The notes beneath the pieces were generated by a model. It was given only the letters and a program-made list of their open reading frames with translations. It was not told the DNA's origin and made no database searches. A program made the translations under genes and the position numbers. 64,000 nt of DNA from Heterorhizobium halophytocola (GTDB lineage: Bacteria; Pseudomonadota; Alphaproteobacteria; Rhizobiales; Rhizobiaceae), in assembly GCF_017873095.1 (NCBI RefSeq), contig NZ_JAGGJU010000003.1, positions 124,001-188,000 on the forward strand, written 5' to 3'. Shown piece after piece: positions 28,296 to 32,150 of this stretch (its first letter is position 1; every line of letters begins with the position of its first letter).

Positions 28296-28769
28296 TCAGT
28301 CGCGCTCGATCCGGCACTGGTAGCAATTGTTGCGGGCCGAACGGACATGCACATAGGCGACGTCGCCCTGGTCCAGCAGGTGGGCTGCACGCCCGGCGAT
28401 CCGGGCAATCGGGATCACCCCGCCGGTTCCATAGACGATCCGCTCGTCGGCGCCATAGCCGCGCAGGATGAAATCGGGGCTATCCTGCAGGACCGGCGGC
28501 AACTCGGATCCGGGCACGTGACGTTCGCAGGCTTCGGCATGCAGGAAGATCGGCCCGGTCTCGGCATAGGGCTGCAGCGCGGAAAACGGACGGTGTGCCA
28601 AAACGAGATAGGGATCGCCGCCGGCGACCTGGCGCAGGCAGTGGCGGCAGGGCACGCCCTGGCCGTCGGAAATCTTCCGCTCCGGCGGGTTGCCATAGGC
28701 GTCGGGCGCGCCGTTCTGATAAGCGCGAGCGGTTTCGGTCGGCAGGGCTTCAAAGCGGATATTGGCCAT
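28296..28769 (-). CDS. DUF1203-family protein
   Basis: A 157-residue protein matching DUF1203: 'GQGVPCRHCLRQVAGGDPYLVLAHRPF', 'AETGPIFLHAEACERH' and the C-terminal 'YVHVRSARNNCYQCRIER'. Conserved cysteines at the two ends (CxxC and C..C) suggest metal or redox binding, but no function is known. The start at 28769 has GGAG upstream; a longer frame adds 20 residues without similarity. It is monocistronic between the PilZ gene and the sseA fusion. Confidence 0.88.
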   Translation of the reverse strand: MANIRFEALPTETARAYQNGAPDAYGNPPERKISDGQGVPCRHCLRQVAGGDPYLVLAHRPFSALQPYAETGPIFLHAEACERHVPGSELPPVLQDSPDFILRGYGADERIVYGTGGVIPIARIAGRAAHLLDQGDVAYVHVRSARNNCYQCRIERD

Positions 28770-28898: not shown

Positions 28899-30332
28899 CT
28901 AAAGACCCGGCGTGTCGCGGCGGATGATCTGCAGCAGCTCTTCCTCGGCCAGCGGTTCGACCAGCGCGTCATAGGTCTCGACCGGAGAGAAGCCGTAGCG
29001 CTGGTAGAGCTGCAACGCCCGGGGATGGTCGAGCGTATTGGTGCTGACCGTCACCTTTTTCGGATTGGACTGCCAGACGGCATAGAGCGCCTGCAGCAGG
29101 AACCATTTGCCGATGCCAAGGCCGAGCGCGTGTTCCATCAGGCCGAAATAGGACAGCTCGATCGTCTCGCCGTCCAGTTCGCGGAACTCGTAGAAGCCGG
29201 CGGGCGCGCCGTTGACATGCAGGACCGAGATCGTGACCTTCGGATCGTGGATGATCGCCTTCAGCGCCTCGTCGTTCATCCTGAGGCGCTCGAACCAGTG
29301 CCAGCGGGCGCCGACCTGGCGCTGCAGATAGCGATAGAAGGGCAGCGGGATCTCGGTCGCGCGCATGATCGCTGTATGGATATTGACCGGAACCGGCATG
29401 CTCGCCTTCGGTGCGGCGGTCATCTCCAGCAGTGTCACATGGGCGGTGAGATGGTTTTGCTGCGCCGGCGCGACGGCAGCCGCCGGGCCGGTGTCGATCG
29501 CAGTCTCTGCCTTGGAACCCCATTCCGACCAGGAGCCGTCATAGAGCGAATTGTCGGAATGGCCGAGCGAATCGAGGGCCAGGGTGATGACGGCGGCGGT
29601 GACGCCGGAACCGCAGCTGGTGACGACGGGCTTGCGCAGGTCGATGCCGGCCTCGGTCAGGACGGTGCGCAGCGTCGTCAGGTCCTTCAGGTGGCCGTTT
29701 TCCGACAGCGATAGCGCCGGCACGCTTCGGGCGCCCGGCATGTGACCGGAGCGCATGCCGGCACGCGGTTCGGGCTCCTCGCCGGTAAAGCGACCGGCCG
29801 GCCGCGCATCGGCAATCTGCTTTTCGCCGTTGCCGGCAATCGCGCTCATCTCGTGGAAGCTGGTGACGCGCCGGGCGTCGAAGCGGGGGGTGAAGACGGC
29901 CGGTTCGGGCCTTGTCGTGCCGGTCTCGACCGGTCGGCTCTCCGCCTTCCAGCCGTCGAGCCCGCCGTCGAGGATGTAGACGTTTTCGGCGCCCATGACG
30001 CGCAGCATCCACCAGACGCGCGGCGCCGAGAAGAAGCCGGGGCCGTCATAGACGACGATCAGGTCGGTGGCGCTGATGCCGAGCTTGCCGACTTCGGCGG
30101 CGAAGAAATCCGGGGCGGGGAGGGAATGGGGCAGGCCGGTCGTATGGTCGACGATCTCGTCCTGGTCGAAGAACACGGCGCCGGGCACGTGGCCGCCTTC
30201 ATACTCCGCCTTGGCGTCGCGCTGGTGCGCGGGCAGGTACCAGGAGGCATCGATGAGCTTGAAGCCGTCGGCGCCCAATTGCTGCTGGACCCAGTCGGCG
30301 GACACGACGAAGCGGCTCTGTTCTCCAGCCAT
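28899..30332 (-). CDS. sseA: 3-mercaptopyruvate sulfurtransferase (tandem rhodanese) fused to a GNAT acetyltransferase domain
   Basis: A 477-residue protein. Residues 1-285 are a tandem rhodanese of SseA type: N-terminal inactive module ('VSADWVQQQLGADGFKLIDASWY', 'HVPGAVFFD'), C-terminal active module with C240 in 'VTSCGSGVTAAV', where the CGSGVTA loop indicates mercaptopyruvate specificity. A Pro/Ala/Gln linker follows. Residues about 304-477 form a GNAT domain ('ISVLHVNGAPAGFYEFRE', 'LGIGKWFLLQALYAVW', 'VSTNTLDHPRALQLYQRYGF'). No stop or frame change separates them. M304 could be an internal start, but its upstream site is poorly placed. It lies 34 bases after the alanyl-tRNA editing gene, in one operon with cysK. 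Confidence 0.9.
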   Translation of the reverse strand: MAGEQSRFVVSADWVQQQLGADGFKLIDASWYLPAHQRDAKAEYEGGHVPGAVFFDQDEIVDHTTGLPHSLPAPDFFAAEVGKLGISATDLIVVYDGPGFFSAPRVWWMLRVMGAENVYILDGGLDGWKAESRPVETGTTRPEPAVFTPRFDARRVTSFHEMSAIAGNGEKQIADARPAGRFTGEEPEPRAGMRSGHMPGARSVPALSLSENGHLKDLTTLRTVLTEAGIDLRKPVVTSCGSGVTAAVITLALDSLGHSDNSLYDGSWSEWGSKAETAIDTGPAAAVAPAQQNHLTAHVTLLEMTAAPKASMPVPVNIHTAIMRATEIPLPFYRYLQRQVGARWHWFERLRMNDEALKAIIHDPKVTISVLHVNGAPAGFYEFRELDGETIELSYFGLMEHALGLGIGKWFLLQALYAVWQSNPKKVTVSTNTLDHPRALQLYQRYGFSPVETYDALVEPLAEEELLQIIRRDTPGL

Positions 30333-31112: not shown

Positions 31113-32150
31113 TCAGACGGTTTCGTATGGGATCTTGAAATCCGGGCGCGTGGTCAGCCAGCCGGGCACCGGCAGGTTCTTCGACGTCAGGAAGTCGGGG
31201 TTGAACAGTTTCGACTGGTAGCGGTTGCCGTAGTCGCAAAGGATGGTGACGACGGTGTGGCCCGGCCCGAGATCCTTGGCGAGACGCACGGCGCCGGCAA
31301 TGTTGATGCCGCTGGAGCCGCCAAGGCAGAGCCCCTCGTTCTCGATCAGGTCGAAGATCGCCGGCAGCGCCTCGGCATCCGGGATGTTATAGGCAAAGTC
31401 CGGGGTGAAGCCTTGGAGATTGGCGGTGATACGGCCCTGGCCGATGCCTTCCGTGATTGACGAGCCCGACGACTTCAGTTCGCCATGCGTGTAGAATTCA
31501 TAGAGTGCTGCGCCATCCGGATCGGCAAGCCCGATCTTGACCCCCGGCTTCAGCGCGCGCAGGCCCTCGGCCGTGCCGGCCAGCGTGCCGCCCGATCCGA
31601 CGGCGCAGATGAAGCCGTCGACCTTGCCGTCGGTCTGCGCGAAGATTTCCCTGGCCGTGGTTTCGACATGCGCCTGACGGTTGACGACATTGTCGAACTG
31701 GTTGGCCCAGATCGCACCGTTCGGCTCGCTCTTTGCCAGCTGCTCGGCAAGGCGGCCCGACAGCTTCACGTAATTGTTCGGGTTCTTGTAGGGAACGGCC
31801 GGCACCTCGACCAGTTCGGCGCCGAGCAGGCGAAGGGCATCCTTCTTTTCCTGGCTCTGGGTTTCCGGGATGACGATGACGGTGCGGTAGCCGAGCGCCT
31901 TGGCGACCAGTGTCAGGCCGATGCCGGTATTGCCGGCGGTGCCCTCGACGATGACGCCGCCGGGTTTCAGCAGGCCCTTCTTCTCGGCATCGCGGATGAT
32001 GTAGAGCGCGGCGCGATCCTTGACCGACTGGCCGGGATTGAGAAACTCCGCCTTGCCGAGAATGGTGCAACCGGTCGCCTGCGAGGCGCCCTGAAGCTTG
32101 ATGAGCGGCGTATTGCCGATCGCGTCGAGGACCGAAGAATGAAAAGCCAT
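31113..32150 (-). CDS. cysK: Cysteine synthase A (O-acetylserine sulfhydrylase)
   Basis: A 345-residue PLP enzyme making cysteine from O-acetylserine and sulfide. The PLP lysine is K44 in 'NPGQSVKDRAA', the substrate loop is 'EGTAGNTGIGL', and the phosphate-binding loop is 'AVGSGGTLAGTAEGL'. It is about 20-25 residues longer than E. coli CysK, mostly at the C-terminus ('LFNPDFLTSKNLPVPGWLTT'), as in other alphaproteobacterial members. It is the first gene of a three-gene minus-strand set with the alanyl-tRNA editing protein and SseA-GNAT. No leader or riboswitch was recognised upstream. Confidence 0.95.
   Translation of the reverse strand: MAFHSSVLDAIGNTPLIKLQGASQATGCTILGKAEFLNPGQSVKDRAALYIIRDAEKKGLLKPGGVIVEGTAGNTGIGLTLVAKALGYRTVIVIPETQSQEKKDALRLLGAELVEVPAVPYKNPNNYVKLSGRLAEQLAKSEPNGAIWANQFDNVVNRQAHVETTAREIFAQTDGKVDGFICAVGSGGTLAGTAEGLRALKPGVKIGLADPDGAALYEFYTHGELKSSGSSITEGIGQGRITANLQGFTPDFAYNIPDAEALPAIFDLIENEGLCLGGSSGINIAGAVRLAKDLGPGHTVVTILCDYGNRYQSKLFNPDFLTSKNLPVPGWLTTRPDFKIPYETV

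Follow-up and report, generated by a model that had tools for sequence, protein, structure and literature searches.

The DNA analysed here (the window) was a stretch of 64,000 nucleotides from Heterorhizobium halophytocola. On one strand it carried, in this order, cysK, an alaX-like gene, an sseA-GNAT fusion gene and a DUF1203 gene. The features of this locus were as follows.

31113..32150, minus strand: cysteine synthase A (cysK), 345 aa; NF007989 at 569.5 bits (cut-off 387) and PDB 5jis at 611 bits
30367..31104, minus strand: alanyl-tRNA editing protein (AlaX-like), 245 aa; PF07973 above its cut-off
28899..30332, minus strand: sseA-GNAT fusion gene, 477 aa; one open frame, with GGAG 5′ of the ATG
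29493..30332, minus strand: 3-mercaptopyruvate sulfurtransferase (SseA) part of the fusion, residues 1-280; NF008557 and PDB 1urh
29457..29492, minus strand: linker, about residues 281-292; low pLDDT and variable sequence
28899..29456, minus strand: GNAT acetyltransferase part of the fusion, residues 293-477 plus stop; PF00583 and structure model
28296..28769, minus strand: DUF1203 protein, 157 aa, next downstream of the fusion; PF06718 at 124 bits (cut-off 27)

The fusion frame ran from an ATG at 30332 to a stop codon ending at 28899 and contained no internal stops. The first-pass annotation had described an sseA frame that continues through a Pro/Ala linker into a complete GNAT domain, and this description held: the frame encoded one polypeptide of 477 aa with a Pro/Ala-rich linker at about residues 281-292. 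When same-genus genomes were searched, a single match spanned residue 1 to at least residue 471 in 60 out of 62. Fifty-five of these 60 matches were stop-free and the other five (G036, G016, G053, G040 and G005) included one TGA, which was the terminal stop. The gene lay in two pieces, on two contigs, in G030, and was not matched in G004, a same-genus genome that is 66% complete. Since both domains shared one frame in 60 of the 62 genomes, a sequencing error or a chance frame was ruled out, and comparison among these genomes indicates that the two-domain fusion is genuine and inherited. The fusion protein as a whole had no second match in its own genome (E <= 0.001), and single Rhodanese domains were present at two other places there.

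The sulfurtransferase half matched the NCBIfam model for 3-mercaptopyruvate sulfurtransferase (NF008557) over residues 7-279, scoring 290.5 bits (cut-off 250), and the Pfam Rhodanese model (PF00581) in two stretches. Residues 8-280 aligned with PDB 1urh (1.1e-69), which we take to be E. coli SseA, and both proteins possess the CGSGVTA catalytic loop. The CGSGVT loop is presumably the catalytic-cysteine loop of two-rhodanese 3-mercaptopyruvate sulfurtransferases, and the cysteine within it, Cys240, was kept in all 55 fused proteins compared. Unlike the 1urh sulfurtransferase, whose chain ends at 280 residues, the window protein continues in frame into the GNAT domain.

Identification of the GNAT half relied on PF00583 (cut-off 20.7), which was matched with 22.9 bits by the whole protein (residues 357-448) and with 25.3 bits by the GNAT part alone. 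Two other Pfam GNAT models stayed below their cut-offs on the fusion protein, and the GNAT part had no NCBIfam match at 0.001. The predicted model of the GNAT fragment had a mean pLDDT of 93 and reached Z scores of up to 16.9 against solved GNATs, which points to a GNAT fold. GNAT motif A for acetyl-CoA has the form [Q/R]xxGx[G/A]. Gly404, Gly406 and Gly408 were invariant in 55 out of 55 fused proteins, with Leu403 at the Q/R position of the motif.

The GNAT domain had been placed from residue 304 onwards, a border that the structure models did not bear out. The fold begins at about residue 293, and its first strand (residues 295-304, xHVTxLEM) was predicted in both the full-length and the fragment model (strand 7-16 of the fragment). 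The same stretch was present in free-standing GNATs of relatives, for example MGKTPASLKAHITRLEM in Rhizobium leguminosarum L063. M304 is thus the methionine of LEM within the first strand. In the full-length model pLDDT was below 50 at residues 267-293, and the pTM of 0.55 was too weak for placing the two halves relative to each other.

Among the 55 fused proteins (50 of them distinct), 33 out of 34 examined positions, from both halves, were invariant and only residue 295 varied. The segment 283-294 was the most variable of those measured, with a mean entropy of 1.87; the others ranged from 0.23 to 1.52, the highest being the C-terminus. Spacing between W271 and V299 was 27 residues in 53 of the 55 proteins, so that the linker was near-constant in length and variable in sequence. 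The first-pass annotation had suggested that persulfide or thiol production could be coupled to acetylation; a linker that is disordered and varies this freely gives no hint of a tight channel between the two halves.

Separate neighbouring sseA and GNAT genes in relatives, with which the first-pass annotation proposed comparison, were readily found. We classified 138 loci as fused (55), split (70, usually with few bases between the genes) or sseA-only (13, with no GNAT found within 3 kb); these loci are best matches that partly overlap, and the ratio of fused to split among them is not a frequency. Named records with the fused form came from Agrobacterium larrymoorei, A. vitis, Allorhizobium, R. 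nepotum and R. skierniewicense, and those with the split form from Rhizobium leguminosarum, Sinorhizobium, Martelella, Brucella, Bartonella and Hoeflea. A fused gene in a record titled Arenimonas, of the Lysobacteraceae (L036, JAIBEK010000047.1), was closely grouped with G013, a genome of the same genus as the window, and this record is probably misnamed or a mixed metagenome bin.

In an evenly drawn sample of 297 family genomes, the fused form was recovered, among the matches listed, from at least 13 genomes in at least 4 of the 106 genus codes. The other full-length family matches listed, L126-L142 (17 loci) and L266-L274 (nine loci), were split. The Shinella locus L264 was full-length by tblastn, yet had a stop between the two genes, as did L266-L274. 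G107, a genome of the same order, also possessed the split form. Both sseA and GNAT matches were present at 87 loci of the class sample, of which the Rhizobiaceae loci L264 and L265 were set aside; none of the remaining 85, all outside Rhizobiaceae, was fused. Within the samples searched, sequence comparison thus places the fusion only in Rhizobiaceae.

In split relatives the sulfurtransferase mostly ended in sequences like ...VVTGKD or ...VTGPPTPVKA followed by the stop codon, and the GNAT gene started a few bases on. All 17 sseA/GNAT pairs in L126-L142 shared one frame with a stop between them, in a set that was chosen by alignments running through the stop and is therefore biased toward same-frame pairs. 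Because all GNAT-bearing outgroups in the tree were split, the split form was taken as the older state. We suggest that the stop codon between the adjacent operon genes sseA and GNAT would have been lost in an Agrobacterium/Allorhizobium-like ancestry. Stop loss is the mutational step that we infer, with an indel also needed where the frames differ.

In free gene trees the fused rows did not form one group and two changes of state were required, and the fused rows fell on one side of a branch in 6% of 200 bootstrap trees. When the fused rows were held together the tree was 3.8 log units better, with an AU p of 0.611 (24 fused and 31 split rows). A single origin of the fusion is thus not rejected by the sequence data and is poorly supported. 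Within the genus code g94, L117 (from G303) was fused, while L128 (G351) and L133 (G391) were split and clustered elsewhere in the gene tree. For this discordance, horizontal transfer or a second fusion is possible.

A search for an internal ribosome-binding site before M304 had also been proposed, and no such site was found. An SD-like 4-mer was located 4-16 bases upstream of M304 in none of the 50 distinct fused genes. At the same spacing it was found upstream of M1 in 42 of the 43 distinct fused genes that could be scored, upstream of 104 out of 1000 random codons and upstream of the first possible start in 23 out of 68 split GNATs. An in-frame ATG was present in the linker of three of the 55 fused genes, and 19 of the 55 had no ATG, GTG or TTG there; the fused genes have thus lost the GNAT's own ATG. 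The gene could nevertheless yield two products, the long protein and a free GNAT whose translation begins within the gene, for example at M304. Methionine occupied position 304 in all 55 fused proteins, and in the window a GGAG abuts the M304 ATG with zero spacing. However, this spacing is not a usable one, initiation at M304 would remove the conserved strand 295-304, and in most split GNATs, too, the equivalent methionine lies inside the protein. M304 was therefore rejected as a start, and we regard a second, free GNAT product as highly implausible.

The gene order of the window was common in other genomes. The genes cysK, alaX, sseA and GNAT occurred in this order and on the same strand in 61 out of 80 loci from genome contigs, and DUF1203 also followed this order in 43 of the 80. 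In 19 of the 80 loci cysK, sseA and GNAT were present with no alaX detected. The AlaX-like protein of the window scored 174.1 bits with the AlaXM model NF040865, below its cut-off of 300. None of the three proteins (fusion, AlaX-like and DUF1203) had a PADLOC match for anti-phage defence at 0.001. A cluster of the form cysK-(alaX)-sseA-(PRK03624 GNAT)-GNAT recurred across Alphaproteobacteria, as would be expected of a lasting tie between sseA and the GNAT, and this distribution indicates that the cluster context is older than the fusion.

On Sinorhizobium meliloti pSymB (CP090106, L265) the same order was annotated, namely cysteine synthase A, alanyl-tRNA editing protein, sseA, GNAT and DUF1203. 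There sseA and GNAT are separate genes, 5 bases apart, whereas in the window they are one. The pSymB split cluster adjoins an alanine dehydrogenase and an Lrp-type regulator. A GNAT of the NF002959/PRK03624 type was found in the same frame as the cluster GNAT in 20 loci, including L144, L151, L152, L155 (173 bits with NF002959), L156 and L160. In this tandem form, which occurs in other Alphaproteobacteria, a GNAT of the same family and in the same cluster is likewise joined to the product of its upstream neighbour. However, the upstream partner there is another GNAT, and in the window it is a sulfurtransferase.

The GNAT profile matched 126 out of 289 class genomes (E <= 1e-15). Gene context was counted in the best 109 loci of these class-sample matches. 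A same-strand sseA was found nearby in 28 of the 29 best loci (the exception, L166, was at a contig start), in 53 of the 54 next-best loci and in two of the 26 weaker matches (L227-L252). Since so few of the weaker matches had a same-strand sseA, the wider GNAT family, as judged from gene context, works elsewhere too. In a phylum draw of 299 genomes, 58 matched the GNAT, including six from outside the class at 114-149 bits. In L228, L229 and L239, from genomes of 1.7-1.9 Mb, a GNAT relative was located directly after cysK, with neither sseA nor alaX in the 8.5 kb fetched. Thus, a neighbouring sulfurtransferase is not a requirement for the GNAT. Apparent amino-acid ABC transporter genes, judged by eye, adjoin these three loci.

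The cluster and the fusion together place the GNAT, by genomic context, with cysteine and sulfur metabolism, and we infer that both halves are active. The SseA half would move sulfur from 3-mercaptopyruvate via a persulfide on Cys240. The GNAT half would transfer an acetyl group from acetyl-CoA to a small amine, for which the likeliest candidate is cysteine or one of its derivatives that the adjacent cysteine synthase handles. Once fused, the two activities would always be present 1:1, linked by a flexible tether, and channelling would not be required. On balance we lean, by a little, towards a bifunctional enzyme in cysteine/thiol homeostasis, formed by stop loss between two operon genes. The putative acetyl acceptor is the weakest step of this proposal: cysteine or a derivative of it is a guess, and one that is more probably wrong than right. 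Acetylation of these compounds is a reasonable first test, given the GNAT relative that lies beside cysK with no sseA.

The two halves might instead be a neutral pair, joined by a harmless accident of stop loss in an operon and working independently on unrelated substrates, with nothing gained. The low model confidence and free variation of the linker, the frequent split form in close relatives and the GNAT relative beside cysK with no sseA nearby all agree with such an accident. It sits less easily with the single frame kept in 60 of the 62 genus genomes sampled and the near-constant linker length, and sseA and the GNAT also lie side by side in genomes well outside the fused clade. We consider a neutral joining unlikely, though it deserves serious attention. 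At the other extreme would be a relay on one polypeptide, in which sulfur from SseA is received as cysteine persulfide (or free cysteine) and the product is then N-acetylated. This relay seems improbable. If it did operate, an N-acetylated thiol or persulfide would be a protected sulfur carrier in Rhizobiaceae and thus a low-molecular-weight thiol route, of which no example was found in the literature searched.

The GNAT could also regulate the cluster by acetylating a macromolecule, such as CysK, SseA or some other protein (at its N-terminus or a lysine), or a target linked to tRNA editing. The presence of RimI, Naa50 and Ard1 among the structures aligned to the GNAT model and of a tRNA editing gene in many of the clusters would suit this role. 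However, 19 of the 80 loci had cysK, sseA and GNAT with no alaX detected, and the best fold matches were of mixed function, which we count against it. Macromolecule acetylation is thus rather improbable, and a role in cysteine/thiol homeostasis is preferred.

The nearest solved folds, being of mixed function, name no substrate for the GNAT. The best structural match was the Legionella GNAT VipF (PDB 6wqb; Z 16.9, rmsd 2.4 over 149 residues, 20% identity). VipF is an effector according to PDB titles, and the fold that it has in common with the window GNAT does not show a common function. Mycothiol synthase MshD aligned with a Z score of 14.4, and this similarity between a predicted model and MshD is a lead only. 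The window protein had no match to the MshD model (TIGR03448, cut-off 163.1 bits), and relatives scored far below the cut-off (24.2 bits in L228 and 41.8 bits in L155, there for the other GNAT half).

No description of the sseA-GNAT architecture was found in the open-licence PMC literature by title or abstract start, and passages of PMC2948915 and PMC9547175 held nothing on such a fusion. Fusion of cluster neighbours is good evidence of a joint role for their products. In this case a GNAT family that has no assigned function in the libraries searched, and that occurs in 126 of 289 sampled alphaproteobacterial genomes, is linked to cysteine synthase and 3-mercaptopyruvate sulfurtransferase, and with this tie to CysK and SseA the function becomes directly testable, as cysteine or thiol acetylation. 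The wider cluster and its GNAT family are a more useful lead than the fusion itself.

Replacement of CysE (serine O-acetyltransferase) by the GNAT was also considered and was rejected, as cysE was matched at 1e-60 or better in 124 of the 126 genomes with the GNAT. The two genome lists were compared by eye, and the genomes without such a cysE match were G440 and G486. The cysE model TIGR01172 was above its cut-off in 212 out of 289 class genomes, and the genome of the window itself matched it at 1.1e-65.
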